NCBI GenBank assembly: GCA_020629235.1
Contig: JAHDDS010000001.1
Span: forward strand, 52,836 to 116,835
Origin: Planktomarina sp.
GTDB lineage: Bacteria > Pseudomonadota > Alphaproteobacteria > Rhodobacterales > Rhodobacteraceae
Reading direction: 5' to 3'
DNA length: 64,000 nt
Positions 863 through 39,302 of this stretch are shown here, in pieces. The notes below the pieces were generated by a model. That model searched no databases. It was not told the DNA's origin and saw only the letters and a program-made list of their open reading frames with translations. How positions within the stretch are numbered: the stretch's first letter is position 1; every line of letters begins with the position of its first letter. The translations under genes were made by a program, and so were the position numbers.

Positions 863-3313
863 ATGTCCGGACCCATGAAGGTGCCCGCGCAGATCGAAGA
901 CTGGTTCGCCCACAAAGGCTGGACCATCCACCCCCATCAGCGGGACATGGTGGCGCGGGCTGCGGATCCGGCAACTTTGTTGATCGCCCCCACGGGCGGG
1001 GGCAAAACCATGGCGGGGTTTTTGCCCAGCTTGGCGGATTTGGCGCAGAACCGGCACAAGGGGTTGCACACGCTCTATGTGTCGCCGCTGAAGGCTTTGG
1101 CTGCCGACATCAAGCGCAACCTGCGCACGCCCGTGGATGAAATGGGCCTGGATATCCGGATAGAGGATCGAACAGGTGACACCACAGCCACCCAAAAGAA
1201 GCGCCAACGGGTGGACCCGCCGCACATATTGTTGACCACGCCGGAAAGCCTGGCTTTGCTGACGTCTTATGAAGACGCGCCGCGCATGTTTGCCGGGGTG
1301 CAGCGGATCATCATCGATGAAATCCATGCCTTGTCGGAAAGCAAGCGGGGCGATCAGTTGATGTTGGCCTTGGCGGCGGTTCAAACCATGTGCCCCGATC
1401 TGCGTCGGGTGGGCTTGTCTGCCACGGTGGAAGACCCCGCCGCCATTGCCAAGTTTTTGGCCCGGCACCCCGATCCTTGCAACATTGTCCAAGCCGATCC
1501 AGGGCCCGACCCCAACATTCAAATGTTGCACACGCAGGACGCACCGCCGTGGTCTGGGGGCGGGGCGAAATATGCCATTCCTGCTGTCCTGGATCAGGTG
1601 AAGGCGCACAAAACCACGCTGATTTTTCACAACACCCGCGCCCAGGCAGAGCTGTTCTTTCACAACCTGTGGCTGGCCAATGAAGACGGTTTGCCCATTG
1701 GGATTCACCACGGATCACTGTCCAAAGAACAGCGGGCCAAGGTGGAAGCGGCCATGGTGGACGGGTCGCTTCGGGCAATCGTGTGCACAGGCAGTTTAGA
1801 CTTGGGGATCGATTGGGGTGACGTGGATTTGGTGATCCAGATCGGTGCGCCGAAAAACGTCAAACGCTTAGTGCAGCGCATTGGGCGGGCGAACCACCGG
1901 TACAATGCCCCGTCCAAAGCGCTGTTGGTTCCGGCAAACAGGTTCGAAGTGGTGGAATGCATAGCCGCGTTGCAGGCGGTAAAGGCCCACGATTTGGATG
2001 GCGACGGGCGCGGACGCGGGCCGCGCGACGTGGTGTGCCAGCACATCTTGATTGCGGCTGCCGCAGGGCCTTTTTCAGCCGATGACTTGTACCAGGAATT
2101 CACCACGGCAGGGGCGTATCATGATCTGACACGGGCGGAATTTGACGCCTGTTTGGAATTTTGCGCCACCGGGGGATACGCTTTGCGCGCCTATGACAAG
2201 TGGCAGCGTCTGTTGCAGCGTCCCGACGGAATGTGGCAACTGCGCGATCCCCGCGCGGCGCAGCGCATTCGTATGAACATCGGCACAATCCAAGACACAG
2301 ACACGCTGAAAGTGCGGCTGAAGAACCGCGCAGGCGGCAAACCATTGGGCGAGGTGGAAGAAGGCTTCGCCGCCACCCTGACGCCTGGCGATACGTTCCT
2401 AATCGGCGGGCAGATCGTGCGGTACGAAGGCCTGCGCGAAATGACGGTTGAAGTGACCCGTCGCGCCGACAAAAAGCCCAAGGTGGCTACGTTCCTAGGC
2501 ACGAAATTCGCCACGTCCACCCAGTTGTCCGCGCGGATTTTGGACATGTTTCGCCAGGACGATTGGCCGGACTTGCCAGACCACACACGCGACTGGCTGG
2601 CGCTGCAGCGCAAGGTCAGCGAACTGCCGCGCCGTGATCGGTTGCTGATTGAAAGCTTCCCCCATGACGGGCGCGCGCAGACGGTGGTGTACGGCTTTGC
2701 CGGGCGCAACGCGATGCAGACATTGGGGCTGTTGTTGACCAAGGGGATGGAAGGGCAGGGGCTGGGGCCCATGGGCTTTGTGGCCACGGATTATGCCACG
2801 CTGATCTGGTCGCTGGATCCTTTGACGGATCCTTGGTCGCTGTTGACGCCGGACGCCATGCGCGACGGGTTGGACACCTGGTTGGCAGGCAACGCCGTGA
2901 TGAAACGCACGTTCAAGGCCAGCGCGATCATTGCAGGGCTGATCGAACGCAACCTGCCGTCGAACCGCAAAACTGGGCGTCAGGCGACGTTCAGTTCTGA
3001 CATCCTGTACGACACCTTGCACAAATACGACCCCGATCATGTGCTGATGCAGATCACACGGGAAGAAGCGTTGCGCGGTCTGGTGGATTTTGGCCGGATC
3101 GAAGAAATGTTGGCCCGCGTTGGGGACCGGATTGATCTGCGCGAATTGGACCGGGTGACACCCCTGGCGGCACCATTGTTCCTGGAACCTGGGCGTGTGC
3201 CGGTGAAGGGGTTGGCAGAAGAACGTTTGCTGGCGGAAGAAACGGAACGGTTGATGACTGCATCGGGCCTGGACCAGGTGGACGCGCCCAAACGTTGGGC
3301 CGTGCCGTTCTGA
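863..3313 (+). CDS. Ligase-associated DEXH-box DNA helicase (Lhr-core family)
   Basis: 816-residue superfamily 2 helicase of the bacterial Lhr-like type. Motif I is APTGGGKT at about 42-49, motif II is DEIH at 152-155, motif III is GLSAT, and the second RecA domain carries TGSLDLGIDWGDVDLV and QRIGRANHR (motif VI). The remaining half resembles the winged-helix and Lhr-specific DUF4145-like region of this family. This form is typically encoded with an ATP-dependent DNA ligase, an exonuclease and a PdeM-type phosphoesterase, and is thought to serve DNA repair. Here only the phosphoesterase follows; the ligase and nuclease are not visible, and the upstream gene is a peptidase. The ATG at 863 fits the usual N-terminus of the family. 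Confidence 0.88.
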   Translation: MSGPMKVPAQIEDWFAHKGWTIHPHQRDMVARAADPATLLIAPTGGGKTMAGFLPSLADLAQNRHKGLHTLYVSPLKALAADIKRNLRTPVDEMGLDIRIEDRTGDTTATQKKRQRVDPPHILLTTPESLALLTSYEDAPRMFAGVQRIIIDEIHALSESKRGDQLMLALAAVQTMCPDLRRVGLSATVEDPAAIAKFLARHPDPCNIVQADPGPDPNIQMLHTQDAPPWSGGGAKYAIPAVLDQVKAHKTTLIFHNTRAQAELFFHNLWLANEDGLPIGIHHGSLSKEQRAKVEAAMVDGSLRAIVCTGSLDLGIDWGDVDLVIQIGAPKNVKRLVQRIGRANHRYNAPSKALLVPANRFEVVECIAALQAVKAHDLDGDGRGRGPRDVVCQHILIAAAAGPFSADDLYQEFTTAGAYHDLTRAEFDACLEFCATGGYALRAYDKWQRLLQRPDGMWQLRDPRAAQRIRMNIGTIQDTDTLKVRLKNRAGGKPLGEVEEGFAATLTPGDTFLIGGQIVRYEGLREMTVEVTRRADKKPKVATFLGTKFATSTQLSARILDMFRQDDWPDLPDHTRDWLALQRKVSELPRRDRLLIESFPHDGRAQTVVYGFAGRNAMQTLGLLLTKGMEGQGLGPMGFVATDYATLIWSLDPLTDPWSLLTPDAMRDGLDTWLAGNAVMKRTFKASAIIAGLIERNLPSNRKTGRQATFSSDILYDTLHKYDPDHVLMQITREEALRGLVDFGRIEEMLARVGDRIDLRELDRVTPLAAPLFLEPGRVPVKGLAEERLLAEETERLMTASGLDQVDAPKRWAVPF

Positions 3314-4955: not shown

Positions 4956-6146
4956 TTATGCCACCAGGACGCGGCGATCTGCGATCATCGTGGCCATGCG
5001 GAAAATTTCCTGCCCCAAAGCGTTGCTGGGATCCACCGATGACATGGGTGCAAAAGATGTGCTGCTTCCCACGAAGGCCCCACCGTTGGGCAACACCATG
5101 TCCACAGGTTTGCCTGCGGCAACGCTCATCCGGTCCAGTTCCATTTCGGTATGATCCGCTTTGTCGCTGTCCATACGGTTGACAATGAACTGCAGCTTTT
5201 CCAGCGGCAGGCCTTCGCCCAAACAGGTCTGACGGAAGCGATCCAACAAAGCTGCGGATTTGCGACCGGGGGTGACGGGGCAAAACACCGTGTCAGCCCA
5301 ATCAAAGGCAACATGGGTCCAGCCGGACAGGGTTTTTGGCATATCCACCACGACAAAATCAAATTGGGTTTGCGCCAATGCCAACAGCTTGGTCAGCCCG
5401 TCTGTTTTGATGGTGTCCAACGGCACCACATCTTCGGGCGCGGTCAAGACCTGCATGTTGGGGCCAAATGGCGTCAGCGTCGCGTTCAACCAGGCCGGGT
5501 CAATGATGTCGGCATCAAACAGCAGGTCCAAAGCGGCCTCTGAACTGGGCAGGCCCAATTCCACACCGATGGACCCAAATTGTACGTCCAGATCGATCAA
5601 ACACACGGTGCCTTTGTCCAAGGCGGCCAATTCGCGGGCCAGGTTCACGGCCAAAGTGGACGATCCAGCGCCGCCGGAAATTCCTTGAATGGCGAAGACT
5701 TCCCCTTTGGCGGCCTTTTGCACCAGGGATTTGGCCAATTCGGGCGCCAAATCAGACAGGGCGATGGCCAAATCACCTTCTTGCAGTGGATATTCGACAT
5801 GGGGTGTCGCGCCGCACTGCGTCAGCTGATAAATTTCCAGGTCCGTCAAATCCTCGGCCACCAACAATGTGGCCAACCCGACCCGGCGCGCCATGGAAAC
5901 GATTTTTTCCACTTCCAACAAGCCGTTGTCGGTGCGGTCATCTTCGTCGACGGCCACAATCAGCAGGGCCATCGTCGCGGCGATGGGGTCTTTCAAGAAA
6001 TCGGCGGTTTCGTCCAGGGTCAACTCGCCCCAGTTTTCACCCAGTTCTGCATGCAAGTCTTCCACCAAAAGGGAAAATGCGCTTAGGTCACGTGCTGCAA
6101 GACACACTTGCAGCGTCGGGCCCTCGGTGGTCAATCGAGTGTCCAT
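4956..6146 (-). CDS. cpaE: TadZ/CpaE-like pilus assembly ATPase
   Basis: 396-residue protein with an N-terminal receiver-like domain (about 1-140) and a MinD/ParA-like ATPase domain starting FAIQGISGGAGSSTLAVNLA at 151-170, followed by CLIDLDVQFGSIGVELGL and DFVVVDMP. TadZ/CpaE localises the Tad pilus machinery at the cell pole. The P-loop is unusual: both lysines of the deviant Walker A motif (KGGxGKS) are absent, so ATP hydrolysis may be weak. The ORF track extends to 6248, but the ATG at 6146 has AGGAT six bases upstream and begins the conserved part, so I prefer it. It lies between a pilin-like gene and the prepilin peptidase. Confidence 0.85.
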   Translation of the reverse strand: MDTRLTTEGPTLQVCLAARDLSAFSLLVEDLHAELGENWGELTLDETADFLKDPIAATMALLIVAVDEDDRTDNGLLEVEKIVSMARRVGLATLLVAEDLTDLEIYQLTQCGATPHVEYPLQEGDLAIALSDLAPELAKSLVQKAAKGEVFAIQGISGGAGSSTLAVNLARELAALDKGTVCLIDLDVQFGSIGVELGLPSSEAALDLLFDADIIDPAWLNATLTPFGPNMQVLTAPEDVVPLDTIKTDGLTKLLALAQTQFDFVVVDMPKTLSGWTHVAFDWADTVFCPVTPGRKSAALLDRFRQTCLGEGLPLEKLQFIVNRMDSDKADHTEMELDRMSVAAGKPVDMVLPNGGAFVGSSTSFAPMSSVDPSNALGQEIFRMATMIADRRVLVA

Positions 6147-31326: not shown

Positions 31327-32427
31327 TCAAAACCCCTGGGGAAATGCATCCTGGTTCATGGCCAAGACGTATCCCACGCCAGCCGCCAGCAACAACCCCA
31401 GCACCACGGCGAAGAATATTTTCCAGAAGGAATAGGGGCGTTCCCCTTGGACCCGCCCGGTGCGCCCATTCACCACAAAGCGAAAGGTTTTGCCCCGGTA
31501 CTTATAAGCCGCCAGCCACACGGGCAGAAGGATGTGCTTGAAGGTCACGTCCGACACATCCGTTTTCACATTGCTGATGCGTTGTTCATCACCGCCGATA
31601 TCAAAACGAATGTCGCGCAAGATGATTTGGTGCATTTTTGCGCGGGCATCGTCGTATCCGTCCACCAGTTCCACGGTGTACCCTTCAGCGCGAAACCCGG
31701 CCAGAAATTCAGGATTATAGGGGCGCATTTCCGCCAAATCCCACGGTTCCAAGCTTTCGGTGAATTTGCGCGGCAGCGATTTGGACGCCAGCACCAACAC
31801 GTCGTCAAACCACCGCGCCACCCGTCCACGCACGTTGCGCCACCGGGTCTTGCGCACACGGACCGTTTGGCGCTTGCCGTCGCGCATGACCGTGCGGTTT
31901 TCATAATAATGCGTGCCGCGCTGCCCAGTATAGGCGGACTTCGTGTCGGCATCGAACGTCCAATAGGGGACGTATATCCCGCTTAACTTGCGGCCTTTGC
32001 GGGCGTATTCCTGCAACCCGTTGGGGGCAAACCACAGACTGCCCAGCCAATCGGTCATGGCCGTGCGCGCGGTGCGTTCGTCAAAGGCAAAGGGCAACAG
32101 GCCCTTGGGTTTGATGTGGCGGTGCGCGCCCGTGTCCGTCACCACCGGGGTGGCGCAAAACGGGCATTCTGCAGAATGGACGTCGGCGTTGAATTCCACC
32201 TGGGCGCCGCAGTTGGGGCATCCGGCAACGCGGGTTTCTTCCATTTCTGCTTCTGGCAATTTGGCCTGGACCGCGCGGCGAAAATCAAGTTCCACCACCG
32301 CGTCGCCCCCGGGCACGATGGTGTCTGTGTTGCCGCAGTGATCGCACGTCAACGTGCCAGCCGTCGGATCAAACCGCAGGTCCGACCCGCAGGCATCACA
32401 GGGGAAACGATGTTCTTCAATGGGCAT
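31327..32427 (-). CDS. Zinc-ribbon membrane protein (TFIIB-type double zinc finger)
   Basis: 366 residues. Two zinc ribbons at the N-terminus (CDACGSDLRFDPTAGTLTCDHCG, then CPNCGAQVEFNADVHSAECPFC) precede an uncharacterised beta-rich middle (YVPYWTFDADTKSAYTGQRG, VLVLASKSLP, HILLPVWLAAYKYRGKTFRFVVNGRTG) and one C-terminal membrane helix (about 338-358). Genome annotations often label relatives as a primosomal N' -like protein, which is misleading since no helicase motif is present. I place the start at 32427 (MPIEEHRF). B. subtilis YdjG, encoded with PspA and an SPFH-type protein, has a similar layout. That suggests a functional link to the SPFH/TelA cluster 1.2 kb away, but this is inference. 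Confidence 0.72.
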   Translation of the reverse strand: MPIEEHRFPCDACGSDLRFDPTAGTLTCDHCGNTDTIVPGGDAVVELDFRRAVQAKLPEAEMEETRVAGCPNCGAQVEFNADVHSAECPFCATPVVTDTGAHRHIKPKGLLPFAFDERTARTAMTDWLGSLWFAPNGLQEYARKGRKLSGIYVPYWTFDADTKSAYTGQRGTHYYENRTVMRDGKRQTVRVRKTRWRNVRGRVARWFDDVLVLASKSLPRKFTESLEPWDLAEMRPYNPEFLAGFRAEGYTVELVDGYDDARAKMHQIILRDIRFDIGGDEQRISNVKTDVSDVTFKHILLPVWLAAYKYRGKTFRFVVNGRTGRVQGERPYSFWKIFFAVVLGLLLAAGVGYVLAMNQDAFPQGF

Positions 32428-32493
32428 GGGCGGATTCTTTCGACCTTGGGTCAGCGGTTGCGTCTTCTTAACATTTGGGAAACCATAAGCGCC

Positions 32494-33048
32494 ATGAAAA
32501 GTGCCCCCGCCATTTTCGCCGCGTTCTTGTTTTGGCTGCCAAGCTTTGGCATCGCTGACCCCGCCACATATGTGTTCACCTGGCAGGGGGCGGGCGGATA
32601 CCGGATGGACGGGGCCGTGCGGTTTCAAAACAACGCGCCCACCCCGATCTGGACCCAAGATGACGTTCAGTGTTTCGAGGTGTTCGGCTATCGCGACGAC
32701 GCATCCGTGGGGCAGTGGTTTTTGTCCAACCGCACGCCCGATACCACCTGGGTATTGAACTTCGACCCGTCCAGGTCCGCGTTCGTGGTGGTGGGCGATA
32801 TCGCAGGTTTGGGGATGCCCCAAGCCTGGAACATGGACGGTTTTGGGTACAACTGCGGCCCCAATGGGTTTGGCTTCAACCTGGCCAGCTTTGCCCAAGA
32901 TCTGTGCATCGACGGGGATTTGATCGAAGAAAGCCAAGTCCCCCCGCCGCAACCTTTGCCCGCAACGCTGGTGCAATCGCACGACTTTACCGACCCTGAT
33001 TGCGCAGGGCCTTTGATGCTAAGCGGTTTACGTCACAACCAGCGGTGA
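32494..33048 (+). CDS. Secreted protein of unknown function
   Basis: 184 residues with a clear signal peptide (MKSAPAIFAAFLFWLPSFGIADPA). The mature part opens TYVFTWQGAGGYRMDGAVRF and later includes FNLASFAQDLCIDGDLI; four cysteines could form disulfides. I do not recognise the family, though small roseobacter secreted proteins with this opening are known to me as hypothetical. The true start is the ATG at 32494; the 310-residue track ORF overlaps the divergent zinc-ribbon gene and is not real upstream of it. The last 16 bases overlap the convergent cytochrome b gene. Confidence 0.65.
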   Translation: MKSAPAIFAAFLFWLPSFGIADPATYVFTWQGAGGYRMDGAVRFQNNAPTPIWTQDDVQCFEVFGYRDDASVGQWFLSNRTPDTTWVLNFDPSRSAFVVVGDIAGLGMPQAWNMDGFGYNCGPNGFGFNLASFAQDLCIDGDLIEESQVPPPQPLPATLVQSHDFTDPDCAGPLMLSGLRHNQR

Positions 33049-33578
33049 AACCAACGCGGGACCATGATGCGCAAAGCGTTGTCGCGCAGCTTGACGTGTC
33101 GCCAGATGTGAAAGCTTGCATGGGCCAGGATGATCAGGCCCAGAAGATAAAACTCAAATATATGAATCTTGCCGATGATGTCGTTGGCATGGGCCCAGTT
33201 CAGGGGCGGTGCGATGGGCAAAAAGCCACCGGCTTTCAGAAGTTTGTGGGACGTCAGCCCCAACAGAAACCCCGTTAAGGCCACCCCAAACAGGCCCCAT
33301 ATAATCGTCTTGTGAACAGCCTGGTGAAAGACCCGCGCCCAGCCAGTCAGTTTGGGGCCGGGGCGGCTGGCCAAACCGCGTCGCCAATAATCTGCGGTCC
33401 ACAGCAGGCAGATCGTCACGAACAAAAGCGCCACATTGGAATGCACAAGAAACGCGGTGCGCCCGCCGAAATTCAACGCCACCTCTGGGGTCACCAAAAC
33501 GAACCAGATCATCAAGGGCACCATGGACCAATGCACCACTTTCAACACGCTGCGTCGGCTGGGGCGTTTTGCGAACAT
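33033..33578 (-). CDS. Cytochrome b561-like diheme membrane protein
   Basis: 181 residues with four to five membrane helices. Histidines suited to axial heme binding appear in LKVVHWSMVP, FLVHSNVAL, KIHIFEFYLLGLIILAHASFHIWRHVKLRDNALRIMVPRWFHRWL. The pattern fits the bacterial cytochrome b561/Ni-hydrogenase b-type superfamily, which transfers electrons between the quinone pool and a partner. No partner redox gene lies beside it. The ATG at 33578 with AAAGG about eight bases upstream is better than the track start at 33617, which falls beside the terminator. Confidence 0.78.
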   Translation of the reverse strand: MFAKRPSRRSVLKVVHWSMVPLMIWFVLVTPEVALNFGGRTAFLVHSNVALLFVTICLLWTADYWRRGLASRPGPKLTGWARVFHQAVHKTIIWGLFGVALTGFLLGLTSHKLLKAGGFLPIAPPLNWAHANDIIGKIHIFEFYLLGLIILAHASFHIWRHVKLRDNALRIMVPRWFHRWL

Positions 33579-33618
33579 GGGCGGACCTTTCAGCAATGGT
33601 GGTTTCCATTTACCCACG

Positions 33619-33669: not shown

Positions 33670-34788
33670 TCAGGCCCCCGGCGGCGGCGGTGGCAGAACC
33701 GTGAACAATTGGGCCAGTTCTTGAATGTCTTCGGCTTTCAACCAACCGTCTTGCCCGGCTGTCCACAAAAACGTTTCGCGCGTCAGCTTGCCGTCGGCCA
33801 CCATGCGCCCAAGATCGGCCTTGGAAAACGGACCTTTGGTTTTGCCTTTTTCTGCAATGTGCCAGATGTGTTCCACCGGTGGTGGCGGCGGTGGGGCCGG
33901 TTGCGCGGCTGCAGGGGCAGCCCCCCAAGGCCCGCCCTGCGACATTTGGCTGGCCATGGCCATGCCCATTCCCATGCCAAGCCCGGCCCCCATGCCGCCG
34001 CCCCCGTTGGGGTTGCTGGCGGATGCAGTCATGGCTTCAGCGGCGGAATACTGCGTGAAGCGGTTCAAATCACCCGCAATGCCCACCGACGTGCGTTTGT
34101 CCAAAGCGGCTTCCACTGCGGGTGGAAGCGAGATGTTTTCGACATAAAGTTCCGGCAGGCTTAACCCATAGTCCGCGATGTTTTCGGAAATCGCTTCTGC
34201 CAACATCTTGCCCAAATCATGGGTGTTGGCGGCCATGTCCAAAACAGGGATACCGCAGCCTGCGATCAAGCGCGAAAAGTCCTGGACGATGATGTTGCGG
34301 ATTTGAAAGCTGATTTCATCCATGGTGAATTCGCCGTCCGTGCCCACCACTTCGGTCATGAAGCGGGCAGGGTCCGTCACCTTCACGGAATAAGTCCCAA
34401 AGGCGCGCAGGCGCACCGGTCCAAATTCAGGGTCGCGGCACATGATGGGATTTTTGGTGCCCCACTTCAGGTTCGAAAACCGCGTTGTGTTCACGAAATA
34501 GATTTCGGATTTGAACGGCGATTTGAAGCCGTGGTCCCAGTGGTTCAACGTGGTCAGGATCGGCATGTTGTTGGTTTCCAACATGTACAGCCCAGGGGTG
34601 AACACGTCTGCCATCTGGCCTTCGTGGATGAACACCGCCGCCTGGCCTTCGCGCACGGTCAGCTTTGCGCCGTACTTTATTTCATGCCCTTCGCGTTCGA
34701 AGCGCCACACCATCGTGTCGCGCGTGTCGTCGACCCAATGGATCACGTCGATGAATTCGCCGGTCAGAAAATCAAAAATGCCCATCAT
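33670..34788 (-). CDS. SPFH (band 7/virion core-like) protein with C-terminal GYF_2 domain
   Basis: 372 residues. The N-terminal two thirds (about 1-240) match the YdjI/virion-core-like SPFH group: FDFLTGEFIDVIHWVDDTRDTMVWRFERE, AVFIHEGQMADVFTPGLYML, TKNPIMCRDPEFGPVRLRAFGTYSVKV and DYGLSLPELYVENISLPPAVEAALDKRTSVG. A Gly/Met-rich linker (GMGAGLGMGMGMAMA) and a proline run lead to a GYF_2-type domain (IWHIAEKGKTKGPFSKADLGRMVADGKLTRETFLWTAGQDGWLKAEDI), then PPPPPGA. SPFH proteins form membrane scaffolds; the GYF domain should bind proline-rich peptides, perhaps its own tail. It is encoded 50 bases after telA and closed by a strong terminator. Confidence 0.85.
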   Translation of the reverse strand: MMGIFDFLTGEFIDVIHWVDDTRDTMVWRFEREGHEIKYGAKLTVREGQAAVFIHEGQMADVFTPGLYMLETNNMPILTTLNHWDHGFKSPFKSEIYFVNTTRFSNLKWGTKNPIMCRDPEFGPVRLRAFGTYSVKVTDPARFMTEVVGTDGEFTMDEISFQIRNIIVQDFSRLIAGCGIPVLDMAANTHDLGKMLAEAISENIADYGLSLPELYVENISLPPAVEAALDKRTSVGIAGDLNRFTQYSAAEAMTASASNPNGGGGMGAGLGMGMGMAMASQMSQGGPWGAAPAAAQPAPPPPPPVEHIWHIAEKGKTKGPFSKADLGRMVADGKLTRETFLWTAGQDGWLKAEDIQELAQLFTVLPPPPPGA

Positions 34789-34838: not shown

Positions 34839-36029
34839 TCAGCCGTCCACCGACGTGCCAACAGCATAACCTGACGCGGTGCCGGACGCTTTGGCCGCCG
34901 ACAGTTTTTCGCGCAGTTCTGTTTCCATCTCTTGCAAGGCGCTTTCCGCTTCGGCGCGCTTGCGCTTGCCTTCGTCGGCGATTTGCAAACTGTCTTCGAT
35001 GGTGCCGATCAGTTGGGCGTTGGCCTGCTTGATGGCTTCGATGTCGAAGACGCCGCGCTCCATCTCTTCGCGGACGATCTTGTTGGTTTCGCGCAGGTTT
35101 TCAGCGTTGGCCGTCAACAATTCGTTGGTCAGATCGTTGGCTTCGCGGATGGCGGTGGCCGCTTCTTTGGACCGCTGTATGGTCACGGCCTGGGCCAGCT
35201 GCGTTTCCCACAGCGGCACTGTGTTCACCAAGGTGGAATTGATCTTGGTCACCAAGGATTTGTCGTTTTCCTGCACCAAGCGGATGGACGGCAGGGACTG
35301 CATGGTCACCTGGCGCGTCAGTTTCAGATCGTGGACCCGGCGTTCCAAATCGTCGCGCGCTGCGCGCAGATCGCGCAGTTCTTGGGCCTTCATCACCTTG
35401 TTCTTTTCGGCGGCCTTTTCGACGGCGGCTTCTGCTTTGGGGATGTCCTTGTCATTCACCAGCTTCAGCTTTTCTTCGCCCGCTGCGATGTAAATCGCCA
35501 GTTCGTCGTAAAAATCCAGCGTCTTTTCATAGAGAACATCCAAGCTTTCGATGTCTTTGAGAAGCTTGTGTTCATGATCCAGCAGATTGTCTGTGATGTT
35601 GTCGATCTGACCTTGCACCGTTTCGTACCGGGCATAGAATTTTGCCAAAGGGGCGGCCTTACCGGTCAGCTTTTCCCACCAGCTGCGTTCGCGGCGCATG
35701 TCCAATTCGCTGACGGAAAAGCCGCGGATGGTGGTGACCATGTTGCGCAAACTGTCGCCTGCGGGGCCCACGTCTTTGTTGCGCACGCCCGACAACATGG
35801 ATTGGGAAATCACCTGCAGTTCCGCTTGGGCCGCGGACCCGAACGATATGATGGACTGGGTGTCGCCCATGTCCAATTCTTTGATGCGCTTGCGAATTTC
35901 CGCTGTTGTAGGTTTGTCGGCGGCTTCCAGCGGCACCAATTCGGTGGATGGTTCGCGCAGTGTCAGCGCGGTGATTTTTTCCACTTCAGCAACGGCCGCT
36001 TCGGCCTTTTGACGAATATCCTCTGACAT
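34839..36029 (-). CDS. telA: TelA/KlaA family toxic anion resistance protein
   Basis: 396 residues, almost entirely helical with long coiled coils, as in the TelA (PF05816) family. Useful segments are RIKELDMGDTQSIISFGSAAQAELQVISQSMLSGVRNKDVGPAGDSL, ERSWWEKLTGKAAPLAKFYARYETVQGQIDNITDNLLDHEHKLLKDI and QTVPLWETQLAQAVTIQRSKEAATAIREANDLTNELL. Members are linked to tellurite and cell-envelope stress, but the mechanism is unknown. It follows the XpaC-like gene by 16 bases and precedes the SPFH gene, the order expected for a Ter-type stress module. Confidence 0.9.
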   Translation of the reverse strand: MSEDIRQKAEAAVAEVEKITALTLREPSTELVPLEAADKPTTAEIRKRIKELDMGDTQSIISFGSAAQAELQVISQSMLSGVRNKDVGPAGDSLRNMVTTIRGFSVSELDMRRERSWWEKLTGKAAPLAKFYARYETVQGQIDNITDNLLDHEHKLLKDIESLDVLYEKTLDFYDELAIYIAAGEEKLKLVNDKDIPKAEAAVEKAAEKNKVMKAQELRDLRAARDDLERRVHDLKLTRQVTMQSLPSIRLVQENDKSLVTKINSTLVNTVPLWETQLAQAVTIQRSKEAATAIREANDLTNELLTANAENLRETNKIVREEMERGVFDIEAIKQANAQLIGTIEDSLQIADEGKRKRAEAESALQEMETELREKLSAAKASGTASGYAVGTSVDG

Positions 36030-36045
36030 AGACTATCCCTTTCTA

Positions 36046-36930
36046 TCAGTCTGTTTGCAGCCCTTCACGGGCCAGACGGTCGCGCAGGACTTTCATTTCG
36101 ATGTCCAGGTCGGTTTTGTTGTTGGCCAAAAGCGTGTCTGTTTTGGCGGTGAAGTTGCCTTCCAGGTCGTCCAGGAAGGTCAGAAAATCTTGGCGCGATT
36201 TTGGATCGCGTTTGTTGGCGTAAAGGCCCGCGAATTTCTGCGTCGCGTCTTTGGCCCCTGTCAAATAGACGGACAGGTACTTGCGCGCTGCGGTCAAATC
36301 GCTGGGGTCTTCTTCCACGCGGCGAAACAGGGTGCGCGCTGTGGCTTGGAAATCTTCCACGCGCGCCTGAACCGTCCGATCGCCCAGGTTTTCAACGGTG
36401 GCTTGCATGATGGCCAGGGTGCCTTCGGCATCGTCGACGACCCGCGCCACACGGTCTTGTTGAAACTGATCAACGCCGTCGAAGCCTTTGTTGCGCATTG
36501 GATCGGGGCCAAATGCAAACAGGTGCAGGGCGGTGCCGGCCAGTCCAGGGACCACTGCGGCCAGGCCCATTTCCGAAAAGCCCGCGGCTGTCAGACCCGC
36601 GCCGGTCACCACAGCGCCAGCGATTTTGCGGGGAAATGCCGGTTTGCGGGCGACTTTGCGGGCATCATAAGCTTCGTGCGCCAGAATGCCTTCGCGGGTC
36701 AGCCAGGCCGCCAGCAACAAAAGACCCAAAGCCACCAGCGCCAGACCAAAGCCCGCCGCGCCGCCGCCGGAAAACATCGCGAATATCAGGGGCAGGGGGG
36801 CGACGAACAGCAGGTTGACTTGAAATCCCACCTTGGACGCCTTCGCCCCGCCATAGGGCCGCTTTTCCACATAGGTTACATCTGCATCCGTCCCGTCAGG
36901 ACTGTATTTTCCACCAAACCGTTTGGCCAT
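36046..36930 (-). CDS. XpaC-like membrane protein (5-bromo-4-chloroindolyl phosphate hydrolysis family)
   Basis: 294 residues. The N-terminus is basic and cytoplasmic, followed by hydrophobic helices at about 38-75 and 95-125, then a helical C-terminal domain (DQFQQDRVARVVDDAEGTLAIMQATVENLGD... RTLFRRVEEDPSDLTAARKYLSVYLTGAKDATQKFAGLY). That last part matches the XpaC family, which pairs with TelA in Firmicutes and proteobacteria. The family name comes from a substrate effect and does not describe a proven activity. Start ATG lies 3 bases after the stop of the 27-residue micro-ORF, so translation is probably coupled. Confidence 0.84.
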   Translation of the reverse strand: MAKRFGGKYSPDGTDADVTYVEKRPYGGAKASKVGFQVNLLFVAPLPLIFAMFSGGGAAGFGLALVALGLLLLAAWLTREGILAHEAYDARKVARKPAFPRKIAGAVVTGAGLTAAGFSEMGLAAVVPGLAGTALHLFAFGPDPMRNKGFDGVDQFQQDRVARVVDDAEGTLAIMQATVENLGDRTVQARVEDFQATARTLFRRVEEDPSDLTAARKYLSVYLTGAKDATQKFAGLYANKRDPKSRQDFLTFLDDLEGNFTAKTDTLLANNKTDLDIEMKVLRDRLAREGLQTD

Positions 36931-36933
36931 GGA

Positions 36934-37017
36934 TCAAAGCCCCCCAAACAGGGACATGGTGAAGATCAAAATGATCAAAATGACATAGGCCACCCGTTGC
37001 AGCGCGGTTCCTGACAT
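36934..37017 (-). CDS. 27-residue membrane micro-protein upstream of xpaC
   Basis: This ORF is too short for the track. It reads MSGTALQRVAYVILIILIFTMSLFGGL: a short polar start with one Arg, then one transmembrane-length hydrophobic segment (about 10-27). A GGGGGA ribosome-binding site lies 5 bases before the ATG, and the stop is 3 bases before the xpaC ATG, both of which argue for real translation. It would insert into the inner membrane beside TerC and the XpaC-like protein. Its function is unknown; it may be a regulatory micro-peptide or simply a leader that couples translation. Confidence 0.6.
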   Translation of the reverse strand: MSGTALQRVAYVILIILIFTMSLFGGL

Positions 37018-37079
37018 TTTGTTCCCCCGAATTGCCAGCCCCCACAACATGGGCAGGAACTGGCAAAATTGCTAGACCT

Positions 37080-37946
37080 TTAGTGCGGACGCTCTTGATT
37101 TGCGCTGCGTTCCATTTCCAGCTTGCGGCGATATCCGGACTGCAAGATCTCCACCACGAACAGCACGATGACCGAAAAGTAGAACGTGGTTTTGGACATT
37201 GGCACCAATTCATACCCGAAGATTCGGATGGCCAGATCGTTATCATGGGCGGCGTGGCTGCCTGTGGTCAGTGCTGCATTGGTGGTTTCAGCGGCGTGGG
37301 CTGCGGCAACACCGGCTTCCCCGATCAGCACGACACCGACGATCAACAAGATGAACAGGCCCAGAACTTCATACATGCGGTTGCGTTGAATGAATTCCGT
37401 CACGCTGTCGGCCAGCAAAAGCATGGCAGCGCCGGACAGCAAAATGGCAGTGGCCAAGATCGGGAACACGTCCGTGATGGCCAGGGCCGACAAGACGGAA
37501 TCAAAGCTGAAGATCAGGTTCATCAGCACGATCAAAAACACCACCTGAAACGCCGATTTGCCGGATTTGGCTTCCACGTCTGTGTGCAAATGATGCACCG
37601 ACAACAGGTGCCCGATTTCCTTGACTGCGGTGTACATAATGAACACCCCGCCGAACAAGAACACGATTGTGGCAAAGTTGACCCCACCGGTCAAAATGCC
37701 GGGATAGTCAAAGATAAAGAAAGGTTCCGACAGACCGTCGATCAACCGGATCATGGCAAACAGCAACACCACCCGCAGGGCCACGGCAACGATGATGCCC
37801 CAAAACCGAACCGCCCGCTGGCTGGCCACGGGCGCGCGCTGGCTTTCGATAGAGATGTACAGAAGGTTGTCGAACCCCAGAACGGCCTGCAAAAAGCACA
37901 GCATAAGCAGGTTGCCCAGGTTTTCGAGTGTGATCAGATCGGCCAT
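37080..37946 (-). CDS. terC: TerC family integral membrane protein
   Basis: 288 residues with about seven helices. The two conserved acidic motifs appear as LGFDNLLYISI near the N-terminus and NLIFSFDSVLSAL in the middle, corresponding to the (G)xDN and FSxDS motifs of TerC. Relatives export manganese or take part in tellurite resistance and metal loading of membrane proteins. A loop at about 215-245 is rich in His and Ala (AAHAAETTNAALTTGSHAAHD). The gene heads the micro-ORF - xpaC - telA - SPFH series, 62 bases upstream of the micro-ORF. It starts 54 bases after the end of the pseudouridine synthase gene. Confidence 0.9.
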   Translation of the reverse strand: MADLITLENLGNLLMLCFLQAVLGFDNLLYISIESQRAPVASQRAVRFWGIIVAVALRVVLLFAMIRLIDGLSEPFFIFDYPGILTGGVNFATIVFLFGGVFIMYTAVKEIGHLLSVHHLHTDVEAKSGKSAFQVVFLIVLMNLIFSFDSVLSALAITDVFPILATAILLSGAAMLLLADSVTEFIQRNRMYEVLGLFILLIVGVVLIGEAGVAAAHAAETTNAALTTGSHAAHDNDLAIRIFGYELVPMSKTTFYFSVIVLFVVEILQSGYRRKLEMERSANQERPH

Positions 37947-38000
37947 ATCTAGGCTCCCCTACGATTTCATCCGCAAGATTTACCAAAGGTTCAGGGGAAT

Positions 38001-38798
38001 TCAACGCTGTGGATTGGGTTTTCTGCGGCGGTTGCGGGGGGAAAGTTTGGGCTTTTGCGACCAGCCCATCTGATCTTTCAGCACCCGCTGCTTCACTTCT
38101 TCGACGTCGCCCTGCTTCAAGTCCCGCAGTTGGAACGGGCCATAGGACACGCGGATCAAGCGGTTCACGGTCAGGTCCAGCGATGCCATGGCGCGGCGGA
38201 TTTCGCGGTTTTTGCCTTCGCGCAGCCCCACTGTCAGCCAAGCGTTGGCCCCTTGTTGGCGGTCCAGGACCACTTCCATGGCCAGGTATTTGACCCCGTC
38301 CACCACCATGTCGCGGCGTAGCGGTTCCAATCTGTCGTCCGACACCCGTCCATTGACCCGGACCCTGTACCGGCGCTTCCACCCGGTGCTGGGCAGTTCC
38401 AGCGTGCGTTTCAGCCCGCCGTCATTGGTCAAAAGCAGCAAGCCTTCGGAATTCATATCCAGCCGCCCCACGGACATCACCCGCGGCATGGTGTCGGGCA
38501 GGGCGTCAAAGACGGTGCTGCGTCCCTTTTCATCGCGTTCTGTCGTCACCAGGCCCGTGGGTTTGTGGTACAGCCACAGGCGCGGCACGTCCGCCGCCGC
38601 GATGGGTTTCCCGTCCACCAAGATTTTGTCGGTGTCTGTCACGGTCAGGGCAGGGGACGACAGGGTTTTGCCGTTCACTTGCACCCGGCCCGCGTCGATC
38701 ATGCGTTCTGCTTCGCGTCGGCTGGCCACGCCTGCGCGCGACAGCACTTTGGCGATGCGGTCGCCCTTTGGGGCTGCAATGTCAGGTGATTTGGCCAT
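38001..38798 (-). CDS. rluB: 23S rRNA pseudouridine synthase, RluB/RsuA family
   Basis: 265 residues. An S4 RNA-binding domain (IAKVLSRAGVASRREAERMIDAGRVQVNGK) is followed by the RsuA/RluB catalytic signature GRLDMNSEGLLLLTNDG, with the catalytic Asp in it, and RMVSYGPF-like RLIRVSYGPFQLRDLKQGDVEEV. A basic tail (RNRRRKPNPQR) is present. It would modify uridine in helix 89 of 23S rRNA, if RluB. The start is the ATG at 38798 (MAKSPDIAAPKG); the track extends 42 bases more. RluE/RluF-type specificity cannot be fully excluded. Confidence 0.88.
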   Translation of the reverse strand: MAKSPDIAAPKGDRIAKVLSRAGVASRREAERMIDAGRVQVNGKTLSSPALTVTDTDKILVDGKPIAAADVPRLWLYHKPTGLVTTERDEKGRSTVFDALPDTMPRVMSVGRLDMNSEGLLLLTNDGGLKRTLELPSTGWKRRYRVRVNGRVSDDRLEPLRRDMVVDGVKYLAMEVVLDRQQGANAWLTVGLREGKNREIRRAMASLDLTVNRLIRVSYGPFQLRDLKQGDVEEVKQRVLKDQMGWSQKPKLSPRNRRRKPNPQR

Positions 38799-38849
38799 GG
38801 GTGTGCCATAAGCCTTGCAAGCCGCGCTGCCAAGCGGCAAGCAAAGGCC

Positions 38850-39302
38850 ATGTGGACATCACCGCACATGGATTTGGCGCTGAACGCCGCCCGGGCCGCC
38901 GCTGCAGCGGACGAGGTGCCGGTGGGTGCCATCATCACAGATGCAGCAGGCACGGTCCTGGCCACGGCCCAAAACCGCACCCGGCGCGACAATGATCCCA
39001 CCGCCCACGCCGAAGTCCTGGCCATACGGCAGGCCGCTGCGGCCTTGGGCCAAGACCGTTTGAACGGATGCACGTTGCATGTGACGCTGGAACCCTGTGC
39101 CATGTGCGCGGGCGCCATTGCCCATGCGCGCCTGGACAGGGTTGTCTATGGCGCGGGCGATCCCAAATCGGGCGGCACCGATCACGGCGCGCGGGTGTTC
39201 GATCACCCACAATCCCACCACCAGCCGGAAGTGGTGTCAGGCGTGATGGAAGCTGAAGCCACCGCCTTGCTGCAAGATTTCTTCGCGTCCAAACGCAGTT
39301 GA
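38850..39302 (+). CDS. tadA: tRNA-specific adenosine deaminase
   Basis: 150-residue cytidine-deaminase-fold enzyme. HAEVLAI (His and catalytic Glu) and TLEPCAMCAGAI (two zinc cysteines) form the zinc site; NDPTAHAEV and YGAGDPKSGG are TadA-type segments. It converts adenosine-34 to inosine in tRNA-Arg(ACG). It is divergent from rluB with 51 bases between the starts. A hairpin and a dispersed repeat copy follow the stop. Confidence 0.93.
   Translation: MWTSPHMDLALNAARAAAAADEVPVGAIITDAAGTVLATAQNRTRRDNDPTAHAEVLAIRQAAAALGQDRLNGCTLHVTLEPCAMCAGAIAHARLDRVVYGAGDPKSGGTDHGARVFDHPQSHHQPEVVSGVMEAEATALLQDFFASKRS

Follow-up and report, generated by a model that had tools for sequence, protein, structure and literature searches.

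Introduction

Several described systems frame the locus studied here. KdpF, with 29 aa, is a small subunit of the potassium pump KdpFABC, and AcrZ is encoded apart from the gene of its partner. XpaC and TelA are widespread and have been linked to envelope stress and to nisin or tellurite tolerance. Cytochrome bd oxidase contains a 37-aa subunit, CydX (PMC4325964). In Lactococcus, a transcriptome study on the overproduction of membrane proteins and on CesSR, an envelope-stress system, reports changes of 10.3-fold for the xpaC-like gene llmg_1115 and 3.44-fold for telA1 (PMC3139573), and a Listeria paper cites TelA as a contributor to nisin resistance (PMC12791056). In Bacillus subtilis, an SPFH protein together with operon-encoded membrane proteins keeps PspA at the membrane (PMC8581546).

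Here, we analyse a micro-ORF located immediately before xpaC in a 64,000-nt stretch of Planktomarina sp. DNA (hereafter, the window). The micro-ORF is a real and conserved gene. It belongs to a known functional class and has no entry in the libraries of protein families that were searched (Pfam and NCBIfam); we consider it probable that the gene encodes a 27-residue single-pass inner-membrane protein that is an obligate small subunit of XpaC.

Results

A 27-codon ORF abuts xpaC

The original prediction placed a 27-residue ORF before xpaC and left its strand unstated. The ORF is borne out exactly, on the minus strand (the plus strand of the same interval reads SKPPKQGHG..., other than the microprotein sequence in Table 1). 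Specifically, it starts with ATG at 37017-37015, runs for 27 codons, and ends with TGA at 36936-36934; 3 nt, TCC, separate the stop from the xpaC ATG at 36930, the spacing that had been claimed. The predicted GGGGGA ribosome-binding site is in place, and the transmembrane-length hydrophobic stretch corresponds to one predicted TM helix at about residues 9-26. A longer form starting from an in-frame upstream ATG at 37050 (38 aa) was rejected, having no good ribosome site and no conservation.

Table 1. Features of the micro-ORF locus in the window.
Feature	Position	Strand	Basis or remark
Micro-ORF, 27 aa, MSGTALQRVAYVILIILIFTMSLFGGL + TGA	36934..37017	minus	sequence, homologues, selection tests
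Shine-Dalgarno GGGGGA of micro-ORF	37023..37028	minus	5 nt before ATG; from sequence
GGGGGG, codons Gly25-Gly26 of microprotein and likely xpaC Shine-Dalgarno	36940..36945	minus	9 nt before xpaC ATG
xpaC, PF10112 Halogen_Hydrol, 294 aa	36046..36930	minus	Pfam E 8.8e-21; AlphaFold2 model
telA, PF05816 toxic anion resistance protein	34839..36029	minus	Pfam match
SPFH (Band_7_1) protein with GYF_2 domain, conserved operon member	33670..34788	minus	Pfam match
Zinc-ribbon protein, C-terminal TM helix (MPIEEHRFPCDACGS...)	31327..32433	minus	weak zinc-ribbon matches only
terC-family gene	37080..37946	minus	upstream of micro-ORF, 62 nt apart

A scan of 36900-37200 revealed no promoter- or terminator-like site, and an Rfam search of 36000-38900 gave no match. 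The spacer between terC and the micro-ORF contains a hairpin of about 14 bp (window 37025-37066, minus strand), with counterparts at about 3117-3153 of locus L023 and about 5866-5893 of locus L024 (10 bp in the latter). The hairpins of the three closest species differ in stem sequence, have similar loops (CAUGUU/CAUAUA), and carry no U-tract. The hairpin was rejected as a family-wide element, as it is not general in the family.

The neighbouring genes encode an XpaC-TelA gene set

The products of xpaC and telA score above the curated Pfam cut-offs (75.2 bits vs 29.8 for PF10112 and 359 bits vs 30 for PF05816). The hydrophobic N-terminal half of XpaC is predicted to be membrane-spanning and is followed by a helical domain. 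An AlphaFold2 model of XpaC (mean pLDDT 74) begins with 30 disordered residues, continues with a hydrophobic, helical region as far as about residue 140, and has a domain of long helices beyond residue 150; a Foldseek search with this model returned no match below E 0.001 and thus no functional hint.

Among the 80 named loci, telA lies directly 3′ of xpaC in all 80, the SPFH gene is present in 78, and the terC-family gene, a variable neighbour, in 20. The usual operon order is microprotein-xpaC-telA-DUF2927-SPFH/GYF-zinc-ribbon TM protein; the DUF2927 gene is missing between telA and SPFH in the window and is present there in another genus (L030). The zinc-ribbon TM protein is likely a further member of the xpaC-telA gene set. 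Between the SPFH and zinc-ribbon TM genes, the window also carries a small membrane protein gene (33033-33617) that has no Pfam match and whose product is, by eye, cytochrome b561-like.

The micro-ORF is conserved in place across the family

A search of 61 genomes with XpaC revealed that a short hydrophobic ORF immediately precedes xpaC at the loci of family members; the alignment consensus is MSxTGLQKxAxVLLLxLILxVxxxGGL. A TM small ORF precedes xpaC in 79/79 usable named family loci (80 loci from the genome collection, of which 79 reach far enough upstream; L069 is counted after correction of its xpaC start). The distance from the micro-ORF stop to the xpaC start ranges from -1 to +5 nt, and the -1 arrangement, a TGATG overlap, is the commonest (41/93). 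In a broader set of 199 family genomes (198 genera), XpaC is present in 175 and a microprotein profile match in 156, and the two are adjacent on one strand in 134 of the 136 genomes with both places listed. We also retrieved twelve genomes in which XpaC has no profile match beside it; each of the 12 contains a small TM ORF at the same position, diverged in sequence and in most cases of a longer two-helix type. The microprotein is conserved in about 150 or more genera, in single copy and in one fixed place in most genomes.

As a chance background, we applied an automated test for a small TM ORF ending next to a start to other ORFs of at least 250 aa in the same DNA as the xpaC loci. The test was passed by 12/780, of which 5 are xpaC genes missed by a text filter and 3 precede an xpaC-like paralogue, giving a corrected background of about 4/775. 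The micro-ORF is a real protein-coding gene, beyond chance.

At one locus (L018 of G023, 1394-1498), the only small ORF before xpaC is lipoprotein-signal-like (MRWLAFAVLSVVVLAASC...) and looks unrelated to the usual helix, an exception that weighs against the subunit reading. Long open frames in G190 and G067, considered as natural microprotein-XpaC fusions, proved to be merely upstream read-through of the frame.

The peptide is constrained at the protein level

The original prediction proposed a search upstream of xpaC in relatives with counts of synonymous and non-synonymous substitutions, and named as the outcome against it a frame that is not conserved beside freely drifting flanks. The search found the ORF at every usable locus, and the counts, taken over 34 disjoint pairs of relatives, gave 368.6 synonymous differences per 773 sites and 228.4 non-synonymous differences per 1951 sites (pS 0.477, pN 0.117, omega about 0.17), with pN below pS in 34/34 pairs. 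Third codon positions take 356/597 differences, and placing the same substitutions at random yields an expected 397 (sd 10) non-synonymous differences vs the 228 observed. With the last four codons left out, omega is 0.166 and pN is still below pS in all 34 pairs. In a set of 48 27-residue forms, L14 and L17 never vary.

When the window is compared with its nearest relative, 13 synonymous and 3 non-synonymous differences fall in the peptide, and xpaC itself is similar (pS 0.61, pN 0.095). The upstream spacer, in contrast, diverges freely: the 80 nt upstream of the micro-ORF are hardly alignable between the two. Judged by these substitution patterns, which bear the prediction out, the microprotein is under purifying selection as a protein.

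The C-terminal Gly-Gly doubles as the xpaC ribosome site

The C-terminal Gly-Gly of the microprotein is nearly invariant, and 70/70 relatives use GGG or GGA for the first of the two glycines; among xpaC glycine codons, GGC makes up 55%. A strong Shine-Dalgarno is present within the last 22 nt before xpaC in 73/77 loci. Given this codon bias and the strong Shine-Dalgarno, the Gly-Gly codons therefore double as the xpaC ribosome site, a dual coding that explains the glycines and not the remaining residues of the microprotein. The overlap of Gly-Gly and Shine-Dalgarno points to translational coupling of the micro-ORF and xpaC.

The microprotein, XpaC and TelA are co-inherited

In the genus of the window, 4/20 genomes contain the microprotein together with XpaC and TelA, and 16/20 lack all three. 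The microprotein matches in the 4 congeners have E 1e-10 or better; matches elsewhere are weak (E 0.03-0.07, chance level). The unit is missing from these 16 genomes though nearly universal in the family, and its absence in the genus suggests lineage loss.

A second xpaC-like gene stands in tandem before xpaC at four loci (L036, 4829; L046, 4974; L102, 4999; and L022 of G021). Its product matches XpaC in BLASTP down to 1.8e-20 (three tested) and falls below the Pfam cut-off. This paralogue is preceded by its own two-helix small ORF, with a similar end helix (for example ...ARVAFAALWVLIFALSYM), and has no telA of its own after it. From these arrangements, the microprotein and XpaC seem to behave as a paired module.

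Among 93 loci, the length forms are 27 residues (51 loci, 26-28 pooled), 29 residues (31 loci), and two-helix forms of 61-82 residues (9 loci). The 27/29 split clusters strongly when mapped on the XpaC tree, where the two-helix forms need at least 4 changes. The loop of the two-helix forms, as read from the sequences, is mostly net positive, and the second, conserved helix would therefore keep the N-in orientation of the one-helix form.

Outside the family, tiny TM ORFs precede long XpaC genes in f131 (38 aa, two genomes), f162 (31 aa), f57 (26 aa), f36 (27 aa), and, in another class of the phylum, f220 (27 aa), with a sequence similarity too low to call homology. Exceptions are G437, with a candidate 68 nt from the gene, and G333, with no candidate. 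Short XpaC proteins (f42, f174, and others) have no small TM ORF before the gene. We advance tentatively, and at somewhat below even confidence, the generalization that all long-type, membrane-anchored XpaC proteins of Pseudomonadota have an obligatory one- or two-helix partner encoded just ahead. If true, XpaC-TelA is an at least three-part membrane-stress complex, the smallest part of which has been overlooked as gene finders skip it.

Conserved positions define a candidate packing face

A K or R is present at residue 7 or 8 in 78/83 homologues, and a charged residue past residue 10 in 1/83; the 16-residue hydropathy is at least 2.0 in the homologues scored. The conserved positions L14, L17, V21, and G25 (in the 29-residue form, G20 and G24) recur with helical periodicity (p 0.014 and 0.03), the pattern that a packing face should produce.

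Discussion

We propose that the ribosome would translate the microprotein and then re-initiate on xpaC through the Gly-Gly/Shine-Dalgarno overlap, a coupling that would give matched amounts of the two proteins in one place. The microprotein helix would insert N-in/C-out, because of the conserved K/R at residue 8 and the lack of charge afterwards, and its conserved face (A10, L14, L17, V21, and G25 or G24) may pack on the membrane-embedded N-terminal half of XpaC, which it would stabilise or tune. XpaC would then join TelA and the SPFH protein in a complex that acts in envelope stress, and the microprotein is probably a built-in part of the XpaC–TelA machinery. The earlier suggestion that the peptide modulates the membrane protein next door fits the strict xpaC linkage, the co-loss, and the paralogous pair.

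The rival explanations differ widely in probability. That the micro-ORF is a spurious chance frame between terC and xpaC we regard as having virtually no chance of being right: it has just 27 codons and is absent from family libraries, but its spread over genera, its purifying selection, and an adjacency far above background speak against chance. A toxin-like, membrane-active peptide or a signalling peptide that acts apart from the operon proteins would likewise be small and hydrophobic; the empty Rfam search, with no antisense RNA or other RNA family there, and the single copy in one fixed place, strictly tied to xpaC, make this very improbable. Slightly better placed, and still improbable, is a leader ORF whose translation matters only for ribosome coupling onto xpaC, the peptide itself being functionless. 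The stop that overlaps or nearly abuts the xpaC start would fit such a leader, and the Shine-Dalgarno-like Gly-Gly codons explain part of the C-terminal conservation; however, residues far from the ribosome site are equally constrained, as the omega value lacking the last four codons and the invariant L14 and L17 attest.

The micro-ORF could also encode a genuine small membrane protein that partners mainly TelA, the SPFH/GYF protein, the zinc-ribbon protein, or else the lipid bilayer, xpaC adjoining only for co-expression, which we regard as unlikely while giving it appreciable weight. telA and the SPFH gene accompany xpaC at all or nearly all named loci, so that linkage alone names no partner; operon linkage and co-loss also fit TelA or the SPFH protein as partner; and in B. 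subtilis the SPFH protein YdjI depends on operon-encoded membrane proteins (PMC8581546). Two observations speak against this: the microprotein gene directly precedes xpaC in every case, and the second xpaC-like paralogue has its own small ORF but no telA of its own after it. A role as a subunit of XpaC is the reading we prefer.

If the microprotein is such a subunit, XpaC-TelA purifications, structures, or knock-outs that leave out the micro-ORF may miss a component. A translationally coupled third component in nearly all XpaC-bearing Rhodobacteraceae would offer a concrete handle on the XpaC-TelA mechanism. The gene is near-universal in a large bacterial family, yet absent from the protein-family libraries searched: searches of Pfam, NCBIfam, and PDB sequences with the microprotein came back empty, and a search of the open-access literature found no paper on a small protein adjoining xpaC.

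Among known systems, the B. subtilis pspA-ydjGHI operon resembles the present one in combining an SPFH protein and membrane proteins as one envelope-stress complex, and SPFH and zinc-ribbon proteins are shared by both operons; here, in contrast, XpaC-TelA replaces PspA, and no counterpart of the tiny helix is described there (PMC8581546). AcrZ (PMC7267776), also a small TM protein, binds a larger membrane protein and tunes it, as the microprotein may do by analogy, but AcrZ has no sequence match to the microprotein. CydX is, like the microprotein, single-helix and operon-encoded, with few conserved residues and a tie to one structural type of large partner (PMC4325964); unlike the microprotein, it is encoded after its partner, which is unrelated, and the sequences do not match. 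KdpF is similar in layout, with about 27-30 residues, one TM helix, and a gene directly upstream of, and overlapping or abutting, that of a large membrane protein, whereas XpaC is no transporter subunit of that kind. A search of Pfam and NCBIfam at E up to 1, in which HMMER filters can drop very weak short-query matches, gave no match to either the KdpF or the CydX family. With regard to the class of operon-encoded single-TM small accessory subunits, the microprotein has fewer than about 50 residues and one hydrophobic helix (27 aa; some relatives have 61-82 aa and two helices), is fixed beside one large membrane protein, and is selected as a protein. By analogy, the microprotein is most likely similar to KdpF or CydX in action and a separate family.
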